This document shows, piece by piece, positions 2,752-18,313 of a stretch of 64,000 bases of DNA. This stretch comes from Cyanobium sp. FGCU6 (GTDB taxonomy: Bacteria; Cyanobacteriota; Cyanobacteriia; PCC-6307; Cyanobiaceae): assembly GCA_024958655.1 (NCBI GenBank), contig JANWUR010000001.1:248001-312000 (forward strand). Reading direction: 5' to 3'. The position numbers and the translations under genes were made by a program. Position 1 is the first letter of the stretch; each line of letters begins with the position of its first letter. The notes beneath the pieces were generated by a model. That model was given only the letters and a program-made list of their open reading frames with translations. It did not search any database and was not told where the DNA came from.

Positions 2752-3759
2752 TCATGACTGCGGCTCGGTTGGTGGGAGCTGCAGCAGATCAAGGCGGTGG
2801 CTGGCCTGAATCTGGCGATAGCGATCCTCTGGCACCCCGGCTTCAGCCGCGTGGCGCGGCCAATCGCGAACGGCGGCGATGACCTCCTCAGCGATGGCCT
2901 CGGCTCGGCCGCGTTTCAGCTGGGCGGAGCGGCCCGCGGCCAGGAGATCGGCCCGCGTGAACTGATCCCGCTTGCCATTCACGGACATCTGATGGGTGGC
3001 TGTCCAGTCGCCAGCGGGATTGAAGCTCCAGGTGATGTCGAAGGCAGGGGACAGCGACCACTGGCCATTGCGATCCATCAGAAAGGCGATGTTCTTGACG
3101 TGATCATCCTGATTGCGGGCCACGAGATTGAACACCATGCGCCGGACCTGCTCTTCCAATTCTCGCATCGGCAACTGGAGTTGCCGCATGACCAGAAACG
3201 CCTGTTCATAGCTGTAGCTGCCTGGTTCGTTGTAATCGAAGTGGGCTAGTGCACCGAGCGACTGCATGTGTAGCTTGTTGCCGGCGTCATCGCGATCGAA
3301 GCGTCGTGTCATGAAATGGCTCCGGCCGTTCTCCTCCAGCAAGCGGCAGTCGCTCATGGAGATCCCTGCAGCCCGGGCCATACGGCTGTAAGCGAGTTCA
3401 ATCACGCCATAGCCCTGAGGATCATCCAGTTCCTTATCTTTGTTGCCGCTCACGCCATCGAACATCAGCAACCAGTGGCTGAATCCCGGCGGAGCCTCCA
3501 GTTGGCCGGAGCGCACCTCACCGGTGCTGGGGTTCCAGGCGATCAACGCCTTGGCACTGGCGCCCCCGGCGGTGGTACCCACCCGCAAGATCGTTTGCAG
3601 GGCTTCTTCCCGCTCCGCCAGCGGCATCATCAGGGGAGCCAACTGAATGCCACTGGCCAGGAACGCGGGGTCGTATTCGAAGGCGGCGACACCGCTGGAA
3701 TCGGTAAGGGCCACGGCACCGATGCGCGTGCCCCAGAGTTCAACGGCCGCAACGGTCAT
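2752..3759 (-). CDS. hipA: HipA-family Ser/Thr kinase toxin, internally shortened
   Basis: A HipA toxin kinase homologue (335 residues; relatives are usually about 420-440). HipA kinases phosphorylate a translation target and are held by HipB. The kinase core is present: a glycine-rich loop TAGGASAKALIAW, the catalytic block NLVARNQDDHVKN, and the metal-binding SPAFDITWSF. The N-terminal subdomain starts normally (WGTRIGAVAL, FEYDPAFLASGI, LAPLMMPL). It then jumps straight to EEALQTILRVG, skipping the segment with the GLPGLLADSLPD-type motif that relatives carry. I infer an in-frame loss of roughly 90-100 residues. The ATG at 3759 overlaps the end of hipB by 4 bases. Toxin activity is doubtful. 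Confidence 0.85.
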   Translation of the reverse strand: MTVAAVELWGTRIGAVALTDSSGVAAFEYDPAFLASGIQLAPLMMPLAEREEALQTILRVGTTAGGASAKALIAWNPSTGEVRSGQLEAPPGFSHWLLMFDGVSGNKDKELDDPQGYGVIELAYSRMARAAGISMSDCRLLEENGRSHFMTRRFDRDDAGNKLHMQSLGALAHFDYNEPGSYSYEQAFLVMRQLQLPMRELEEQVRRMVFNLVARNQDDHVKNIAFLMDRNGQWSLSPAFDITWSFNPAGDWTATHQMSVNGKRDQFTRADLLAAGRSAQLKRGRAEAIAEEVIAAVRDWPRHAAEAGVPEDRYRQIQASHRLDLLQLPPTEPQS

Positions 3760-4414: not shown

Positions 4415-5092
4415 TTAGATCTCGCTCCATTCATCAGAAAGTTCGCGCACGAGAGCCAGCAGATCGTCTGTCTTTTCGTTCAGTTGTGAATCGTGGTAGC
4501 CATGGGCGACACGGTTGCGGCTGGAGGTAAGGTCTTTGATCCGGTGAAACTGCTGGCGAGAAAGCTCTCCTTGCGAATACAAATGATTGGTCAGTGCCAG
4601 GGGCGTCAATCTGTCGATCGGAATGGCGGCATGAATCGAGTGCCGCCGCATCATCCCCTCCAGGGTGCTCCATAGAAGCAAGAAGGCCGCCTCAGGTGCC
4701 CCACCTGCAATCAGCGTCTCGGCTTGGCTGGCTCGTTGGAGAGCTTCGTCGACATGGAGGAGATCGCGCTCGCAACCGACCGGCAGATCGTCGTCTTCAG
4801 TCACCAGCAAGAAGCGCCAGCCTGGATGGGCCTGGACACTCTCAGCAATCGATCTGAACCGATCTACTGAGATTGGGCGAGAGGAGCTTTTGATCTCAAT
4901 GATGTAATTCTGATCAGGTTCCTTCTGAGCAATGATGTCTGGCCTGTACCCTCCAAGGTCGAAGGGAAGCCTGCTCAAGTCAGGATTGGCGATGACAGAA
5001 AATCCTTGTTGATGATATTTTTCGGCAACTCTTGACTCCAGCTCACTAGGAAGCTTTTGTTGATCGAGAGCGCCATCTGCATTCAGGTTCAC
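4415..5092 (-). CDS. PD-(D/E)XK nuclease-like domain fused to a HEPN-like domain
   Basis: A 225-residue protein I do not recognise as a named family. The N-terminal half carries a restriction-type nuclease signature: GYRPDII near residue 50 and YIIEIKSSS near residue 65, giving the D...ExK spacing of PD-(D/E)XK enzymes. The C-terminal half is helical and contains SSRNRVAHGY near residue 190, fitting the R-x4-H motif of HEPN domains, many of which are RNases in defence and toxin systems. The GTG at 5092 overlaps the stop of the RusA-like gene (GTGA), which decides the start. Base composition looks lower in GC than its neighbours. A DNA- or RNA-targeting effector is an inference. Confidence 0.7.
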   Translation of the reverse strand: MNLNADGALDQQKLPSELESRVAEKYHQQGFSVIANPDLSRLPFDLGGYRPDIIAQKEPDQNYIIEIKSSSRPISVDRFRSIAESVQAHPGWRFLLVTEDDDLPVGCERDLLHVDEALQRASQAETLIAGGAPEAAFLLLWSTLEGMMRRHSIHAAIPIDRLTPLALTNHLYSQGELSRQQFHRIKDLTSSRNRVAHGYHDSQLNEKTDDLLALVRELSDEWSEI

Positions 5093-5493
5093 AGTTTGTC
5101 CTCCAAGAAGGGTTGGCTGGAAATGCGTACGTAGACACACTCACTGCCGCTCAGCAAGCCTTGAAGCAGCTGATCGGGCCATATCTCAGCAGTGTAGTCA
5201 AAAAGCGAGGAAAGAGTGCGGCGCCGTGATTCAACATCTGTAATCAGGATGTCATCTTCATAGACCAGACCCTTGAGAGCATCCAGGATGGGCTTGATAA
5301 TGTTATCTGCGTCAACAGGATCGCTGCCGCAAAGATAGATCAAGGTCAATTGCAGATCTTGGTCAGCAATCGGCGCATTTCTCCAGGTCTTTGCAGCTTC
5401 ATCCGCTACAAACTGTTGCCAGTCCCGCAAGCGCTGGCGTCTTCGTGCCTGAACGGACACAGGACGATCGGGGATCAAGAACGCAAACTCCAT
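5089..5493 (-). CDS. RusA-family Holliday-junction endonuclease-like protein
   Basis: A 134-residue protein resembling RusA crossover-junction endodeoxyribonucleases, metal-dependent dimers that cut four-way junctions. The central block DPVDADNIIKPILDALKGLV followed by YEDDILITDV reproduces the RusA pattern, with the conserved acidic residues (D-D-N-K and E-D-D) that coordinate metal. RusA genes are usually phage-borne recombination genes; here it sits in a defence operon. The ATG at 5493 lies one base after the methyltransferase stop; a GTG or ATG five codons upstream is possible. It overlaps the next gene by 4 bases, so the two form a unit. Confidence 0.75.
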   Translation of the reverse strand: MEFAFLIPDRPVSVQARRRQRLRDWQQFVADEAAKTWRNAPIADQDLQLTLIYLCGSDPVDADNIIKPILDALKGLVYEDDILITDVESRRRTLSSLFDYTAEIWPDQLLQGLLSGSECVYVRISSQPFLEDKL

Positions 5494-9893: not shown

Positions 9894-12869
9894 TCACAGC
9901 TGCGGTGCCGGCAGCAGCACGAACAGGCCGATCACATCCACCGGCAGGCTGGGTTCACAGCGGAAGCGCATCCGCAGCGCCCCACCCGTGCCCACTGCCG
10001 CCTGCCGCACCCGGCGGTGATCGTCTTCTGCCTGAGTGGCGCGATCCAGGGCCAGGGTGCGCAGGTCGGCGTCCAGGCCAGGCAGCCGCTGGAGCGCCCG
10101 CTCCAGTTCCATCTGCCGCTGGCCCGGTTGCACATTGCCCACTGCGGGCTGCTGGAGCAGGGCCAGGGCCTCTGCCTCCGCCAGCACCCGCATCCCATCG
10201 GCCGCGCAGTGCACGGTGAGGCACTCCTCCACCAGCAGCGGCGGCATCGCTTCAAAGCCGGCGTTGGTTCGGCGCTCCTGGTTGATCTGGTGCCGCAGGC
10301 GCAGCAGCAGCAGGGTGGTGCGCTCCTTCACTCCGTTGGTGCGGATCACGGCGCTGCGGGCCGCCAGCTCCGGCTCTTCCCCGCTCAGGGCCCGCTCAGC
10401 CACAAACTCCGCCAGTTCCACCACCAGCGGATGGGAGCGGCTGAGCAGCTGGGCGCCATCACGGCAGGGCGGGCTTGTGCAGAGGCTCAGCCGTCCCTCC
10501 AGCCCCTGGCTCTCCAGCCGTTCCCGCAAGGCGCGCCGCTCAGGCGGAATCTCGGCCAGGTTGAACTGCCATGCCCCACTGGCCGCTGCTGGGGCCGGCA
10601 GCCGCAGGCGGGCGCAGGCCTCCATCAGCAGCCGTTCCACCGCGGCGTGGTCGCCCAGGGCTTCCTTGCTGCGCTGCCACTCCGGCAGCACCTCCTCGGG
10701 CTTGAGGCGCCGCTGGGCAAAAATCGTTTGCGTGCGCTTGGCGTTCTCCTTGGCGCTCTGCCATTGCTGATCGAGGGTGGCCTCCCAGCCCAACAGCGGC
10801 AGCACCTCAGGCATGCCCGGGGGCGTCGCCAGCCCCAGATCCAGCCCCAACTGCTGCACCGATTCGCCCAGCACATCGGCGAGCACCGCCTGGGTGATCG
10901 AGTTCATGTCGCCCGGCACCGGCACGCTCACGCCCAGCTCCTTGCGGATCACCTTCTCCTTGTTGAGGATCACCGCCAGCACCCGCTCATCCACCGGGTT
11001 GCGGCGATTGGGGTCTTTGCAGGCCCCATGCAGCATCAGGGCCCGCACGGTGTTGCGGGCCTGGCCAAAGCGGTCCACCCGGCCCTCGCGCTGCTCATGG
11101 CGCGTGGGGTTCCAGCAGAGGTCGTAGTGGATCACCGCATCGAAACTGCGCTGCAGGTCGATCCCCTCCGAAAGGCAATCGGTGGCCACCAGCACCGGTG
11201 TTTTCGGTTTCTCCGGATCGAACGCTTCTGCCTCCAGCGCCGCAATCCGCTCCACCCGCTCCTCGGGAGGCAGTTCGCCGGTGACGGCCCGCACCACGGT
11301 GCTGCGCTTGGGCAGGGAAGCGGTGAGCTCTTCCGCCAGGTAGTGGGCGGTGGGGCGGAAGCGGCAGAAGATCACCGGCCGGTAGCCCTCGTCCAGCAAC
11401 TCCTGCACCTGCCGCACCAGCTGCCGCAGCTTGGGGTCCTTGCTGGGGCCCCGCAGACCCTCGGCCGTTTCGATCAACGCTTCGAGATGGGCGCGATCAG
11501 CCTCCACCGCCAGGTCGCCGCCGGGTGCGGACTCCTCTTCTGACATCGCCTCATCCAGGCCATCGAGCACGCCCTGGCTGGCGAGGACCTCCAGCTCGCT
11601 GAGCTGCTGCTCCTCGCTGAGGCCCTGGCCGTTATCGCCCTGCTCCAGGCCGGCCAACTTCGTGCGCAGCGACACGGCCGCCGCCGCGGGGCTGCTGCTG
11701 ATGCAACGCAGCAAGGCCAACGCCGCCCACCAGCTCATGCGCTGCCGCAGGCGGCTCTGGCCGGCGCTGCGCTTGATCAGCGTGCGCGCGTACTCGAGTA
11801 CGTCGTGGAACAGTGCACCCCAGGCGCCGGTGAGTTCATAGGTGGCCTCGCGGGTTTCGCGGTCGGGGAAGTCGGAGCCGTCGCTGCCCCACTCCGCCCG
11901 GATGTCCTGGCGCCGCCGCTGCACGAAGTGATCCCCCAGCTCATCGCGCAGGGCATCGCGGCGGGCTCCCTCGGGCATCGTGCCCAGCTCGGCAAATTTC
12001 GCATCCAGCAGCCCCAGCAGGTGATTGAAGCCCTCGCTGTCGCCGCTGTGGGGAGTGGCGGTGAGCAGCACCACATGGCGATCAGGCCGTGCCGCCAACC
12101 CCCGCAGCAGCTCATAGCGCTGGTGGCGGCCCCGCCCCTTGCCGGCGGTGCAGGTGTGGGCCTCATCCACGATCACAAAGTCGCCGCAGCCGCGGATGAA
12201 GCCGTCGCGGTAGTCGTCGCGCTTGATGGTATCGAGGCTCACCACCGTGAACGGGTAGGCTTCAAACAGCGAGTGCCCCACCGGCAGGTCCTTGCTCAGC
12301 CTCCCAACGGTTCCGGGCCGCACCACTTCCGCATCCAGCTGGAATTGCTGGGCCATATCGCTGCGCCACTTCTCACACAGGTGCGGCGGGCAGATCACGG
12401 TGATGGTGCGGATCTCGCCGCGATCGAGCAGTTCGCGGGCGATCAGCAGCGCCTCCACCGTCTTGCCCAGGCCCACCTCATCGGCGATCAGCAGCCGCGT
12501 GACGCGCTGCTTGAGCGCCATCAGCAGCGGCACCAGCTGGTATGCCCGCGGCTCCAGGGCCAGGTTGCCGAGGCTGCGGAATGGACCCGCGCCGGCGCGG
12601 AGCTTGAGCAGCAGGGCATCGCGCATCAGCAGCGCCGAGCTCTGCGAACCGCTCTGGCTGGCATCCGGCCAGGGGAAGGTTGCCGGGGTGACCTGGTGCC
12701 CCTCCAGCGGCAGGAACAGGGTGGCGATCTGCTGGTCGCCGCCGCCCAGGGGCCGCAGCTTGAGGGTGTTGGGGGCCGGGTTGGGCAGCACCACCCACTC
12801 CCTTCCTCGGGCACGGACAATCGAGCCCGGGGTGGTGGGTGCCGTTGGTGCCATGGGGGTGCTGGTCAT
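9894..12869 (-). CDS. drmD: SNF2-family helicase, DISARM DrmD-like
   Basis: A 991-residue SNF2/Swi2-type ATPase. After a ~100-residue N-terminal region (SIVRARGREWVVLPNP, LRPLGGGDQQ), the motor has Walker A ADEVGLGKTVEALLIARELL near residue 133, DEAH motif II VIVDEAHTC near 235, TATPHSG as motif III, and the C-terminal lobe with ATDCLSEGIDLQ and REGRVDRFGQ near 560-600. The opening and the first lobe match what I know of DrmD, the SNF2 helicase of class 1 DISARM; the symbol is tentative. It overlaps the upstream helicase gene by 4 bases and is followed by relBE and the methyltransferase. Confidence 0.8.
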   Translation of the reverse strand: MTSTPMAPTAPTTPGSIVRARGREWVVLPNPAPNTLKLRPLGGGDQQIATLFLPLEGHQVTPATFPWPDASQSGSQSSALLMRDALLLKLRAGAGPFRSLGNLALEPRAYQLVPLLMALKQRVTRLLIADEVGLGKTVEALLIARELLDRGEIRTITVICPPHLCEKWRSDMAQQFQLDAEVVRPGTVGRLSKDLPVGHSLFEAYPFTVVSLDTIKRDDYRDGFIRGCGDFVIVDEAHTCTAGKGRGRHQRYELLRGLAARPDRHVVLLTATPHSGDSEGFNHLLGLLDAKFAELGTMPEGARRDALRDELGDHFVQRRRQDIRAEWGSDGSDFPDRETREATYELTGAWGALFHDVLEYARTLIKRSAGQSRLRQRMSWWAALALLRCISSSPAAAAVSLRTKLAGLEQGDNGQGLSEEQQLSELEVLASQGVLDGLDEAMSEEESAPGGDLAVEADRAHLEALIETAEGLRGPSKDPKLRQLVRQVQELLDEGYRPVIFCRFRPTAHYLAEELTASLPKRSTVVRAVTGELPPEERVERIAALEAEAFDPEKPKTPVLVATDCLSEGIDLQRSFDAVIHYDLCWNPTRHEQREGRVDRFGQARNTVRALMLHGACKDPNRRNPVDERVLAVILNKEKVIRKELGVSVPVPGDMNSITQAVLADVLGESVQQLGLDLGLATPPGMPEVLPLLGWEATLDQQWQSAKENAKRTQTIFAQRRLKPEEVLPEWQRSKEALGDHAAVERLLMEACARLRLPAPAAASGAWQFNLAEIPPERRALRERLESQGLEGRLSLCTSPPCRDGAQLLSRSHPLVVELAEFVAERALSGEEPELAARSAVIRTNGVKERTTLLLLRLRHQINQERRTNAGFEAMPPLLVEECLTVHCAADGMRVLAEAEALALLQQPAVGNVQPGQRQMELERALQRLPGLDADLRTLALDRATQAEDDHRRVRQAAVGTGGALRMRFRCEPSLPVDVIGLFVLLPAPQL

Positions 12870-15800
12870 GACGGCTGGCCTCCAGCGAGCTTGTCAGCGT
12901 GCTGGGCGAACACCGCCGCGATCTGCGCACCCAGATCCCCGGCTGCAGCGGCACTGCTTGGGGCAGCCGCGGGCGGGTTTTCGCCATGGCCCTCGCCAAA
13001 CAGCCAGCGGTATTCGTCGAACACCGCATCCCACTGGCGCGGGTCGTCGGCAAACACCACCACGTTGAGGCCGGCGGCATCGAGGGCCGAGCGCTTGCGC
13101 TCATCGAGCTGCTGCTGCAGCGGCTGCTTGTGGTGCGGACCGTCCACAAACACCAGCGCGGCGGCTTCCACGTAGGTGAAGTCGGGCACCACGTAGTGAT
13201 CGGGCACCGGCGACTGCGCTTTATCCGGCAGCAGATAGCCCCGCTGCTGCAGGGTCTGCAGCCAGAGCCGTTCCAGACCGCTCTGGCAGAGATCCAGCAG
13301 CTGATCGAGCCGCTCGCTGCGCCCCGTCGTGCCCCCCTGGGCCACCACATCGGCGCGGGCCAGATCGAGCAGGAACTGCTTCAGGGAGGGGAGGCGGCGA
13401 TCGATCAGCTCGTGGTCCCGCTGGTTGTTGTAGCTGAGCAGGCAGCGGTAGCAGCCGGCTTCGCAGTCCTCATCGGTGTCGTTGAGGTCGATCGCCTGCT
13501 GGGGCAGCAGGCCCTCCCACTTCCAGTGGCAGATCTCCAAGGCCTGGCGACCCAGCAGCTGCATCGCCGTGGGGCTCTCCACCAGGCGGCTCAGCACCCC
13601 GGCACCACCCTCGGCGGCCTCATAGATCAACAGCGCCGAGGCGTTGGCTTCGTTGGGCATCAACTCGGCTGCCAGCTCGCTGGGGTCGAGCTGGAAGGCC
13701 ACCTCGATCGCGCGCTTGAGGGCATAGCGCACTGAGATCAGATCACGGGCCGTCCATTCCTGGCGGAACCGCACCAGCAGGGCGTTCTTGCGGTCCTGCA
13801 CGTAGGGCGTGATCTTCACGTAGCCCTCTTCTGATTCGCCGTCCTCCTCGTCGCCGCCGGCGACCAGATCCGACTCCTTGCCCCAGGTGCCCTTGGTGGG
13901 ATGGATGGGGAAGCCGATGTTGCCCGGATTCTCCCGCCGCCGCCGGCCCAGGTTGATGCGGCTGATCTGGGTGGCGGCGCCATAGCTGAGGGTCAGCAGC
14001 GGCCGGCCCGCCACACTCACCTCGGCGATCGCCACTCGCACCTGGTTGTTCTCCTTGGGGAACTCATAGGTGGTGAGCAGCTCGTAGCCCAGCCGCTGCC
14101 GTTCTTCGTCGTCGGAGGTGATCCGCTCCGCCCGGCGCGTTGTGACCTGCTCGATCTGATACAGGTGCGGGATGCGCAGGGCGTTGCCGTCGGGCTGGAG
14201 TTTGAGGGCTGCGCCGCAATGGCAGCACACCTCCAGCTCGGCGTCCTCACCCAGGTGGGCATGGCCGCAACTGCCGCACACCAGCGCATCGCGGGTGGCG
14301 AGGGTTTTGGTGGTGCTGGTGCTTGCCTGTTCCTGCAGGTTGAGAATCGCCCCACGCACTTTGTAGGTGTTGCCCTCGTGATAGATCAGCGAATGGGGGC
14401 CGAATTCGCTGATGCCCACAAACCGCGGCCTGCTGATATAGGTGCCGCCATTCACCTGCTCGCGGCTGCCGGGGATGAAGGCCAGCAGCGGCAGCCGCGG
14501 GAAGTTGTACCCCGGCATGAAGCCCTGGCTGGCCAGGTAGCGGTAGGTGGTGAAGTCGCCGTTGGCGGAGTAGGAAGATCCTGTCGCTTCCGCCAATAGC
14601 AGCCGCTGCTGGATGCGGGCGGCATTTCTACGCTGGTCAGCGTTCAGTCGCTCCCGCTCAGGAAGTGCCAAGTTGCGAGCATCTCTCTCAGCCGCAACTA
14701 TCTGGCTATCCACTGCATCAATTAGACCACGCCAGCGGTTGAGTGAGCGATCGAAATCGCGCGCTGTGCCATGGATCAGCCCCTCCAGCCAGCTCTCAGT
14801 AAGCCAGGGTGGGGGAGTGGCCCCCAGCCAGTTGTGGCGCTTGAGGTCATCAACGATGGCCTGGCAGGCCCGCAGCGCCTGATCCCGTGCCTTGGGGTGG
14901 TCGAGCGCTTCTGCGATCTCGTTCACCACAGGTTTGAGCTCGGACTCCAGCCCCACCAGCTCCTTCACCTTGCTGGGGAGGGCCTTGCCCGTGGCGGCCA
15001 GCCACAGAGCGCGGAAGTGGGCGATCAGCAGCTCTTCATTGGCCAACTCCAGCGTGGGTGCACTCACGGCGCCGGACACCATACGGGTGGGAGCCGAGAA
15101 GAAGTATTGGTCGTGCGGTGAAGTGGCCCCGCAGTAGCTCAATACGAGGGCTGGCTGACCGCTGCGCCCTGCCCGGCCACTGCGCTGGGCGTAATTGGCC
15201 GGCGTGGGCGGCACGTTGCGCATGTACACGGTGTTGAGCGAGGAGATGTCCACGCCCAGCTCCATCGTTGGCGAGCAATAGAGCAGCCGCAGCTGCGCCT
15301 CACGGAACGCTTCCTCCCGCTTCTCCCGCTCCAGCGCATCCACCTGGGCGGTGTGCTCGCGAGCCAGCAGGGTCTGCAGAAAGGGGCGGCCCTGCTCGCT
15401 CAAGGTGGTGGCCAGATCGTTGTAGAGGTTGCGGAAGTAGTCGTTCACCGGCCCACGACGACCGGAGCCCTGGCGTTGTTTCACCAGCGCTGCGTGGTAC
15501 TCGTCCTGAGGCGCTGCTTCTGGATTGCACAGCGTCCAGCGCAGGCGACTGCTGCTGAGGCGCCAGCCGCTCTTGCTCTCGCCACTGCCACGACGGCTCA
15601 AGCGCAGATCCACCTGCTTGACCAGGTGGTAGCGCCCCAGCACGGTGACCAGCCCGCCAGTTATCTCCTGGTACAACGCCTCATCCCATTTCAGGCCGGC
15701 ATGCAGCTCTTGCAGTGAACGCCAACGCTGACTGGCCTTGAGCCAGCGGCCGAATTCACCCCGCAGCGACAGCCCCTCCAGACCGCGGAACTCGCGGCCC

Positions 15801-18313
15801 CGGGCATCGCGTGGCACCGTTTCAAACACAACACTGCGCGCCAGTTCGCCCTTCTCATCAGCACCGATCGCCCACACCTCCTCCAGCTCGGAGGCGGCAC
15901 GGCGCCGCCGCTCGAACTCTTCGGCAAACAGCACATTGGTTTCGATTGCCAGCCGCTCCCGAAGCTCCTCGAGCAGGCGGTGGCAGATCAGATAGCGCTC
16001 GATGGCTGAGCACTGGGCCAACAGGGGATGCTGATCCGCCCACTGGCCGTGGTCTTCCACGCAGTTCACCAGCTCGGCGTAGTCGACCTCCAGCAGTTGC
16101 AGCTGCTCCAGGTTGGGGTTGGTGAGCCGCCAGCCGCGGCGCAGGTCCACCACCAGCCGGTACTCGAGCACCTCGCGCAGGGCCTTGCGGAACCTGCCCT
16201 CCGCCGCCGGTACGGTGCCTTTCTGCTCGATGAAGTCGTCGGCCTCCAGCCGCAGGGCTTTTTCAGTTTCCTGGGCCAGGGTTTCCAGGCTCAGCTCCTG
16301 CTCCGGCTGGGCCTGCAGCGCGGCCACCAGGCCGGCGCGCAGCTGCAGCACCCGCATGAAGTCGTTGAAGTGTCCCGCCTGGAGGGAGGCGTCCTGGCGG
16401 TTGTCGCTGAAGGCCAGCAACTTGCGGGCGTTGTCGGGGAGCTCGTTGGCCGGGAAGTTGAGCAGCTGCCGCAGCACCGACAGGCTCAAGGTGGTGGTGG
16501 CGGAACTGCGGCCCTCGGAGCTCAGGCCCACCAGCTTGCGGAAATCGCTTCCCCGCGCGCTGTGCTCCACCCCGCAGGTGGGGCAGAACCGGAAGCTGCC
16601 GCTCAGGAACCAGCCCGGCAGCCCGTCGGTGCTGGCCAGCCCATCGGCACGGAAGCGACAGGGCACAGGCGCTGCTTTGCGGAAGTGCTGGCGCAGAACC
16701 ATCTCGCCGTCTTTGCCCGGTTCCAACCAGCCATCAGGGAAGTTGGCCTTCTCGGGCTCATCGATGCAATAGGCCCCCGCTGCATCGGGCATGAAGTAGC
16801 CATGGATCACCGCTTTGTCGCTGGCGCTGGCCTGGTCGCCGAAGTCGCGTGGCTCCAGCCTTGCCGGCCGCTTGCTCTGCAGATGGGCCCACACCGGGTG
16901 GAATTCCTGGCCGCAGTTGCGGCAGAACACCAGCGGAAACAGAAGAGCCTGGCGGTCGCTGCCCGGCCGGTAGATCTGACCCTTGAGCGTGGGATGGCGT
17001 GACCCCGGCGGCTCCAGGGTGCAGTAGATGTCGCCACCGGCCGAGACGAACTGGTGTAGACGGAATGCGAAGAACCTCCGGTTTGGCGCTACCTCCACCT
17101 GATAGGCCGCCAGCAAGAACTCCCGCAGACGATTGCGAGCCTGCTGGGGATCGATCCCGCTGAGCTGCGCGAGCTCTTCCGCCGCCACCCGGAATGCCTT
17201 GGGGTTGGAGCGCACCCATTTGCCATCGGCCTTGTCGTCTTCTCGCCGCAGCCCCAGCCGAAGCTCCAGCCAGCGAGCCAGGGGATGGCGACGCAGGCTC
17301 TCCCCTTCCCCAGCAGCAACGTCTCCCGCAAGGGCCTGGCGCAGCTCTTCGGCGCTGGGTAGATCGCCTTCTGTGACCCGCTCCAGCGTCTCGGTGACCA
17401 CGTTATCCGCCGGAATTGTGGTGCCGAACAACTTGCTCGCCACCGATGCCACCAAGGTGTTGCGCTCTTCCGCGCTGCCCTCACTGGCCATCGTGGCCGA
17501 GGTGCCGATGCAGATCAGCTTGCTGTCCGGTGCCAGGCGTTGCCGGACCCGGCGCACCAACATCGCCACATCCGCGCCCTGCCGGCCCCGGTAGGTGTGC
17601 AGCTCATCAAGAACCAGGAACTCCAAGCCCTGTGCCGCCCGGATAACCTGCTGATCCTGAGGATTCTGGCGCGTAAGGATATATTCCAGCATCACATAGT
17701 TCGTGAGCAGGATATCAGGAGGGCTGTTCTGGATCATCTCCTTTTCTGCCTGCGACTCCTGCCCTGTGTAGCGAGCAAAGGTGACTCGCTCAGAGCCCTT
17801 GGGGTAGCCCAGACAGAGGTACTTCTTCAGCTCTTTGAACTGGCTGTTGCACAGGGCATTCATAGGGTAGATGACAATCGCCCGAATCCGCTTTCTGGTA
17901 TCACCGGCCTCCTTGGCTTCGATGATGCGCTGCACCATCGGCAGGATGTAGCCGATCGATTTGCCTGAGCTGGTGCCGGTGGTGATGACCACGCAACCGC
18001 CAGCCAGCACGATCTTGAGGGACTCCAGCTGATGGAGGTGCAGCTGCAGCTCCTGGCCTTCGCCGTTCTCCTTTCCCCAGCGGAAGATCTGGCGGCACTC
18101 GGGGTGCAACAGGCCCTGCTCCACCAGCTGACCGATGCTCCCCCCACCCACGAAACTGGGATTGAGCTGGATCAGCGGTGAGGGCCAGTACTCCTCGTCC
18201 CCATAGCGGCCATCCACGAACTCGCGGATGTCGTCCGCCCGGATCGTGGTGAAGCTCCTGCTGAACTGCCCGTAGTCCTCGACGACCCGGTCGCGGAAGG
18301 AGAAAACGTCCAT
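12866..18313 (-). CDS. Giant DEAD/DEAH helicase with DUF1998 and C-terminal nuclease-like domain
   Basis: An 1815-residue protein that heads the defence operon. Walker A is GTSSGKS near residue 115, and motif II is DELH (LVLDELHTYRGRQGADV) near 238. The C-terminal helicase lobe (MELGVDISSL, QRSGRAGRSGQP) is near 1010-1050. A zinc ribbon (CGSCGHAH...CCHCGAAL) lies near 1345-1366 and a DUF1998 region (YEAAEGGAGVLSRL, CEAGCYRCLLSY) near 1565-1640. The last ~120 residues hold VVPDFTYVEAAALVFVDGPHH, resembling Vsr/DUF559 PD-(D/E)XK nucleases. It thus combines features that DISARM splits between DrmA (helicase) and DrmB (DUF1998). The ATG at 18313 is clear. Fusion to one chain is the unusual point. 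Confidence 0.82.
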   Translation of the reverse strand: MDVFSFRDRVVEDYGQFSRSFTTIRADDIREFVDGRYGDEEYWPSPLIQLNPSFVGGGSIGQLVEQGLLHPECRQIFRWGKENGEGQELQLHLHQLESLKIVLAGGCVVITTGTSSGKSIGYILPMVQRIIEAKEAGDTRKRIRAIVIYPMNALCNSQFKELKKYLCLGYPKGSERVTFARYTGQESQAEKEMIQNSPPDILLTNYVMLEYILTRQNPQDQQVIRAAQGLEFLVLDELHTYRGRQGADVAMLVRRVRQRLAPDSKLICIGTSATMASEGSAEERNTLVASVASKLFGTTIPADNVVTETLERVTEGDLPSAEELRQALAGDVAAGEGESLRRHPLARWLELRLGLRREDDKADGKWVRSNPKAFRVAAEELAQLSGIDPQQARNRLREFLLAAYQVEVAPNRRFFAFRLHQFVSAGGDIYCTLEPPGSRHPTLKGQIYRPGSDRQALLFPLVFCRNCGQEFHPVWAHLQSKRPARLEPRDFGDQASASDKAVIHGYFMPDAAGAYCIDEPEKANFPDGWLEPGKDGEMVLRQHFRKAAPVPCRFRADGLASTDGLPGWFLSGSFRFCPTCGVEHSARGSDFRKLVGLSSEGRSSATTTLSLSVLRQLLNFPANELPDNARKLLAFSDNRQDASLQAGHFNDFMRVLQLRAGLVAALQAQPEQELSLETLAQETEKALRLEADDFIEQKGTVPAAEGRFRKALREVLEYRLVVDLRRGWRLTNPNLEQLQLLEVDYAELVNCVEDHGQWADQHPLLAQCSAIERYLICHRLLEELRERLAIETNVLFAEEFERRRRAASELEEVWAIGADEKGELARSVVFETVPRDARGREFRGLEGLSLRGEFGRWLKASQRWRSLQELHAGLKWDEALYQEITGGLVTVLGRYHLVKQVDLRLSRRGSGESKSGWRLSSSRLRWTLCNPEAAPQDEYHAALVKQRQGSGRRGPVNDYFRNLYNDLATTLSEQGRPFLQTLLAREHTAQVDALEREKREEAFREAQLRLLYCSPTMELGVDISSLNTVYMRNVPPTPANYAQRSGRAGRSGQPALVLSYCGATSPHDQYFFSAPTRMVSGAVSAPTLELANEELLIAHFRALWLAATGKALPSKVKELVGLESELKPVVNEIAEALDHPKARDQALRACQAIVDDLKRHNWLGATPPPWLTESWLEGLIHGTARDFDRSLNRWRGLIDAVDSQIVAAERDARNLALPERERLNADQRRNAARIQQRLLLAEATGSSYSANGDFTTYRYLASQGFMPGYNFPRLPLLAFIPGSREQVNGGTYISRPRFVGISEFGPHSLIYHEGNTYKVRGAILNLQEQASTSTTKTLATRDALVCGSCGHAHLGEDAELEVCCHCGAALKLQPDGNALRIPHLYQIEQVTTRRAERITSDDEERQRLGYELLTTYEFPKENNQVRVAIAEVSVAGRPLLTLSYGAATQISRINLGRRRRENPGNIGFPIHPTKGTWGKESDLVAGGDEEDGESEEGYVKITPYVQDRKNALLVRFRQEWTARDLISVRYALKRAIEVAFQLDPSELAAELMPNEANASALLIYEAAEGGAGVLSRLVESPTAMQLLGRQALEICHWKWEGLLPQQAIDLNDTDEDCEAGCYRCLLSYNNQRDHELIDRRLPSLKQFLLDLARADVVAQGGTTGRSERLDQLLDLCQSGLERLWLQTLQQRGYLLPDKAQSPVPDHYVVPDFTYVEAAALVFVDGPHHKQPLQQQLDERKRSALDAAGLNVVVFADDPRQWDAVFDEYRWLFGEGHGENPPAAAPSSAAAAGDLGAQIAAVFAQHADKLAGGQPS

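Follow-up and report, generated by a model that had tools for sequence, protein, structure and literature searches.

The C-terminal tail of a large helicase encoded in a 64,000-nucleotide stretch of DNA from Cyanobium sp. FGCU6 (the whole of which is called the window here) is probably a Vsr-type PD-(D/E)XK endonuclease, fused to an ArmC protein and acting as the cutting arm of an ARMADA Type I anti-phage operon. What was observed directly is the domain, the fold predicted for it, five residues in it that do not vary among relatives, and the surrounding operon. Vsr-ended helicases of ARMADA Type I have been described by Bell et al. (2025; PMC12458937), and the window adds a new example; what goes beyond the published architecture is a branch of systems in which the tail is dead or lost and, in nearly all members, an HNH_2-type gene lies in the same cluster. 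The relevant features, in window positions, are:

12866..18313, minus strand: ArmC-like YprA-family helicase, 1815 aa, with DEAD, Helicase_C, MZB/DUF1998 and a Vsr-like tail
13439..13729, minus strand: MZB/DUF1998 zinc module, residues 1529-1625 (Pfam PF09369, 43 bits)
12989..13291, minus strand: Vsr-type PD-(D/E)XK nuclease-like domain, residues about 1675-1775 (DUF559 match, AlphaFold2 model, VIA-align, hhalign)
13271..13273, minus strand: codon of E1681, first helix (constant in 30/30 and 80/80 relatives)
13181..13183, minus strand: codon of D1711, in PDF (aligned with D51 of E. coli Vsr)
13142..13144, minus strand: codon of D1724, in VDG (conservation)
13130..13132, minus strand: codon of H1728, second His of DGPHH (conservation)
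13103..13105, minus strand: codon of D1737, following helix (conservation and hhalign)
9894..12869, minus strand: ArmA-like SNF2/RapA helicase (DpdE/DrmD-like), 991 aa
5495..9421, minus strand: ArmB-like adenine methylase of PglX/DrmMI type with an NPPW motif
4415-5140: AHJR-type restriction-nuclease-like gene, between methylase and McrB (66.5 bits)
2752-3759: HipA-like gene, between methylase and McrB
405-2675, continuing on contig C27 at the window start (L145:9338-10411), operon strand, downstream: McrB- and McrC-like genes

The operon runs from the YprA-like helicase through the SNF2 (BrxHII/RapA-like) helicase to the PglX-like methylase, and the SNF2 gene overlaps the end of the helicase gene by four bases. 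As described in PMC12458937, ARMADA Type I consists of a YprA-like helicase, a BrxHII-like helicase and a PglX-like methylase, with a YprA-like protein that ends in a Vsr-type nuclease predicted to be active; a BrxA-like insertion, a beta-barrel zinc module and one insertion in the OB region are further marks of this type, whereas a GajB-like helicase with a RelE-like N-terminus marks ARMADA Type II, the type assayed in E. coli. The window shares with Type I its gene order, a predicted active Vsr tail and the absence of an adjacent GajB-like gene, none having been found among the neighbours scanned, and no feature that would exclude membership was found in the window. Whilst the same source reports a reversed gene order in many cyanobacteria, that of the window is the standard one. 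Its operon has particular neighbours: downstream of the methylase, the next genes scanned were AHJR-type, HipA-like, McrB-like and McrC-like, and among the loci of 80 relatives (the best 80 of 549) the AHJR-type gene and the HipA-like gene each turned up in a single one. In a helicase tree, 103 loci and the window group together (support 0.961) when compared with just two further YprA proteins, both encoded by this genome. The window operon is a match to ARMADA Type I, for which a built-in Vsr nuclease has been predicted in print.

The same genome encodes further YprA-like helicases. On contig C66 (L147:122-8580), which begins inside the helicase frame, a YprA-like helicase is followed by a UvrD/GajB-like helicase protein, as in ARMADA Type II, and has by eye a Vsr-like end (ADF, TDG, H). 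A third, on contig C47 (L146:5989-14787), likewise looks Vsr-like at its end on visual inspection (ADF, IDG, H), and it adjoins a Schlafen/AlbA_2 protein.

An earlier note on this DNA had likened the end of the 1815-aa open reading frame to the Vsr/DUF559 nucleases on the strength of three strings (VVPDFTY, ALVFVDGPHH and LNVVVFADDP), all of which are present in that frame. When residues 1646-1784 were scanned alone, DUF559 matched at 24.5 bits, above its cut-off of 20.6; it was absent from the matches listed when the whole helicase protein was scanned. Four tails were scanned in this way, two passing the DUF559 cut-off, one falling below it and one giving no listed match, and three of the four also gave a below-cut-off match to another nuclease family, MTES_1575. 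A plain DUF559 identity was set aside, since not all four tails pass and structural comparison puts I-Bth0305I and Vsr on top. An AlphaFold2 model of the tail only, built from 71 aligned tails, had a mean pLDDT of 83.4 and a pTM of 0.67, with blocks over the domain at 80-97 and low confidence in the final residues, where the C-terminal end is also variable among relatives. VIA-align ranked the phage homing enzyme I-Bth0305I (3r3p) first (Z 9.6, 3.0 A, 90 residues) and Vsr (1cw0) second (Z 8.5, 2.5 A, 92 residues), with a mitoribosomal protein (Z 8.4) and 3hrl (Z 8.2) tied with the Vsr row, on a scale where Z below 8 may reflect merely a common arrangement. Foldseek returned nothing at E <= 0.001; its top row was the mitoribosomal protein and its second I-Bth0305I (E 0.042). 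A profile search of solved-structure sequences gave weak rows (a helicase end at E 0.032, three cullin rows at 0.11-0.12, 3r3p at 0.38, and 3hrl and a second helicase at 1.1), so that the fold assignment rests on the model. On that model the tail looks like a Vsr-type PD-(D/E)XK-like domain with an alpha-beta core.

The two nearest structural relatives illuminate different aspects of the domain. Likeness to E. coli Vsr (1cw0, 1vsr) is one of fold together with a pairing of residues: hhalign (probability 41, P 2.8e-4) places the LE of the tail on Vsr E25, PDF on D51 and a later Asp on a Vsr Asp, so that E1681 and D1711 pair with E25 and D51, residues important for catalysis in Vsr. The alignment has a gap at Vsr H69, and H1728, constant among relatives, is a candidate for the active-site His. 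Vsr is a stand-alone enzyme, whereas the tail is a fused domain, and at the stretch where Vsr has HG the tail has DG and lacks the Cys residues found there in Vsr. I-Bth0305I, the best structural row, belongs to a family whose conserved motif gave it the name EDxHD (PMC3943268); along the tail, E, D, D, H and D occur in that order. Unlike ArmC it is a homing enzyme, and the likeness is by fold and motif order rather than by residue-to-residue match. The proposed kinship with Vsr and DUF559 was supported by the match of the isolated tail, by a model nearest to I-Bth0305I and Vsr, and by conserved acidic and His residues. Its placement in the C-terminal tail was also correct; the span first given, about 1689-1815, misses E1681 and is better drawn at 1675-1775.

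Conservation singles out the same residues. Whole-protein searches covered 60 relatives and 386 genomes of the same phylum; 34 of 62 loci were aligned, 30 of which reach the tail, the rest being fragments or other YprA-like proteins. E1681, D1711, D1724, G1725, H1728 and D1737 are identical in all 30 same-phylum relatives with a readable tail, and of the 115 tail columns 15 do not vary among these relatives, D1711, D1724 and H1728 included. Neither of the two outcomes that the earlier note had named as refuting its reading, a fold unlike the PD-(D/E)XK core or acidic residues missing from close homologues, was observed. Its D-x-x-H motif survives in part: the Asp is conserved, but the His it literally specifies (H1727) is His in only 10 of the 30, the constant spacing being D-x-x-x-H with H1728 (30/30). 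The same residues are constant in 80 of 80 loci from a species-level collection, a set unable to reveal degraded tails, as one of the search patterns contained D1724, G1725 and H1728, the other lay in DUF1998, and the loci were then reduced by tail similarity to the best 80 of 549. Within that set (best 80 of 549) an SNF2 gene follows the helicase in 78 of 80 loci and a methylase was seen in 68 of 80. One locus, L120, has a full-length helicase with an intact tail, and relatives of the SNF2 protein and methylase were not found within its 20 kb. Two other phyla (398 and 396 genomes searched) yielded 42 loci scored for D-DG-H: 28 keep the motif, five do not and nine have no anchor, which becomes 26 of 31 readable tails once two genomes selected via their tails are removed.

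That some tails have lost the motif bears on the first alternative, in which the Vsr-like tail would serve to bind or position DNA rather than to cut it. Bell et al. (2025; PMC12458937) report that Druantia I and II carry inactivated Vsr tails, for which a role of this kind is predicted, and inactivated tails also occur inside ARMADA I (L199, L235, L238, L240, L200 and L201). Yet a pure binding domain would not need the five polar residues that are constant among the window's relatives, and what the inactivated tails have lost is residues of this motif; a purely binding role is, on this evidence, unlikely. Dead or lost tails in certain Type I systems that keep both helicases and the methylase nonetheless imply that cutting by this domain is not needed in all of them.

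A second alternative, that the domain serves Vsr-like repair or acts on RNA rather than on invading DNA, draws on the annotation of Vsr as a mismatch endonuclease and on CoCoNuT systems, for which Bell et al. (2024) predict RNA targets and which in some cases carry a Vsr-like effector. The company kept by the domain argues otherwise: the operon includes a methylase, a tested anti-phage system is among its relatives, and McrB- and McrC-like genes lie next to it, making this explanation improbable. The same report of 2024 links certain McrBC branches to a DISARM-like system.

The suggestion with which the earlier note began, that the locus is DISARM and the tail a nuclease standing in for DrmC, can hardly be sustained: whilst the SNF2 and methylase neighbours do resemble DrmD and DrmMI (279 and 205 bits), the SNF2 protein scores 636 bits against DpdE versus 318 bits against DrmD (cut-off 610 bits), the helicase is DruE-like rather than DrmA-like in PADLOC scoring (DruE3 best at 328 bits, best DrmA 44 bits), the DrmA helicase and DrmB DUF1998 protein that are separate genes in DISARM are here joined in one 1815-aa frame, and for the PLD nuclease DrmC, a common though not constant part of DISARM, a PLDc_2 (PF13091) search of the genome matched other contigs and gave no match on contig C27, which holds the window. 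The gene set is that of ARMADA Type I, and a substitution for DrmC, itself reported to be dispensable in DISARM (PMC9142583), was rejected with the DISARM frame. Closer in kind is DruE of Druantia III, a helicase-nuclease effector (PMC13192584) that shares with the window protein a YprA-like helicase and a fused nuclease, though DruE ends in two PLD domains and the window helicase in a Vsr-like one; no Druantia partner such as DruH was among the matches listed for the six window proteins scanned.

If the system cuts DNA with this tail, the ArmB methylase would mark host DNA, and the ArmA SNF2 helicase together with ArmC would act on phage DNA that lacks the mark or on intermediates of replication. 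ArmC would travel along the DNA and its tail would cut it by means of a water bound to metal, which some of the residues E1681, D1711, D1724, H1728 and D1737 would hold in place. For this copy we infer metal-dependent cleavage, its target, the part played by methylation and anti-phage activity itself from the domain and its setting. The mutations named in the text of PMC12458937 hit helicase and methylase motifs, with none in the Vsr domain.

A wider set of 122 loci, in which plasmid loci were selected by helicase similarity, comprises 99 intact tails, 21 degraded tails and two that could not be read (L209 and L237); L210, which the initial pattern had scored as degraded, is counted as intact by sequence. 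A dead or lost tail is accompanied by a downstream, same-strand HNH-type gene in the following loci:

L191, L192, L193, L144/L198, L196, L197, L199, L208
L229-L233, L235, L238, L240

Five of the 16 HNH genes were scanned and are HNH_2, and the remaining ones were found by similarity to three of those. Some tails in this branch are almost complete but lack the residues (L235, L238 and L240), and others are truncated. The HNH-type gene starts 30 bases after the methylase match in Sphingobium and 78 bases after it in Methylorubrum, comes after an SMC-like gene in Mesorhizobium and Agrobacterium, and lies about 2.5 kb further on in two Rhizobium plasmids. Where the end of the methylase was seen, an HNH gene was present in the sequence covered in 16 of 19 degraded loci versus 1 of 71 intact loci, the intact set having the shorter reach, including loci kept for tail similarity and holding at least three records twice (L088/L212, L109/L213 and L129/L239). 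At equal reach the association persists, with 13 of 18 degraded versus 0 of 41 intact loci at 2.7 kb, 15 of 18 versus 0 of 15 at 3.5 kb, and 13 of 16 versus 1 of 12 at 5 kb. In the one intact locus concerned, L239, other genes intervene before the HNH_2 gene, which lies 4.2 kb downstream. Five control plasmid loci were fetched before their tails were read: L235 and L238 carried an annotated HNH gene and then proved to be degraded, L234 and L236 are intact without HNH, and L237, also without HNH, is one of the two unread loci.

In the tree, from which 19 of the 122 loci were omitted as having no helicase frame of 1450 aa, all 17 degraded branch loci fall in one clade with a support of 0.999, as would follow from one event and not many. 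This clade joins the window's group at 0.991, and the sister group of 60 has a support of only 0.012. L199 and L238 share 67-76% identity with clade members over DUF1998 and at most 53% with other loci listed. Some branch members are near-copies, L229-L231 being 92-95% alike in the helicase and L144/L194 nearest neighbours. Of the 19 branch members, 17 could be judged, the exceptions being L194, whose operon genes were not found, and L207, whose contig ends. The HNH gene is present in 16 of these 17; the member without it, L228, has an IS21 element directly after its methylase gene. HNH and helicase distances across 15 loci, L239 included, correlate with an r of 0.93 (reached in 0 of 5000 shuffles), which fits joint descent. 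As the sequences read, the HNH association is one of single origin followed by long co-inheritance, and it suggests that the nuclease can leave the helicase for a gene of its own. It is quite possible, if still tentative, that in ARMADA Type I a nuclease output is needed but exchangeable, and that this proteobacterial branch shifted cutting from the Vsr tail to a joined HNH_2 gene; were that so, the Vsr tail of the window would be the effector that HNH replaces. Counting against a strict need for a nuclease are the dead tails of L200 and L201, two loci of the actinobacterial phylum that have lost the motif, have no HNH_2 gene and lie nearest in the tree to intact loci of that phylum; in L200 an AAA_5 ATPase gene and a McrBC-family gene (L200:4612-8026) come directly after the methylase. 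In the main text of PMC12458937 HNH occurs once, in the title of a reference, and no description of an HNH-linked ARMADA branch was found among titles and abstract openings on ARMADA, ArmC/Vsr, YprA and HNH.

These observations address the wider question of how helicase systems of the ARMADA, DISARM and Druantia types destroy phage DNA, ARMADA being listed in a 2026 article (PMC12904381) among systems that restrict by unknown mechanisms. The window supplies a constant set of five residues for mutation, and the HNH branch provides a natural contrast, with a dead tail and an HNH gene on one side and a live tail with no HNH nearby on the other, so that one can test directly whether the nuclease is the effector. 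Judged from its sequence, the tail in the window is most likely a working nuclease and the cutting arm of ARMADA Type I, and the HNH branch fits the view that some nuclease is required in these systems whilst its source may change.
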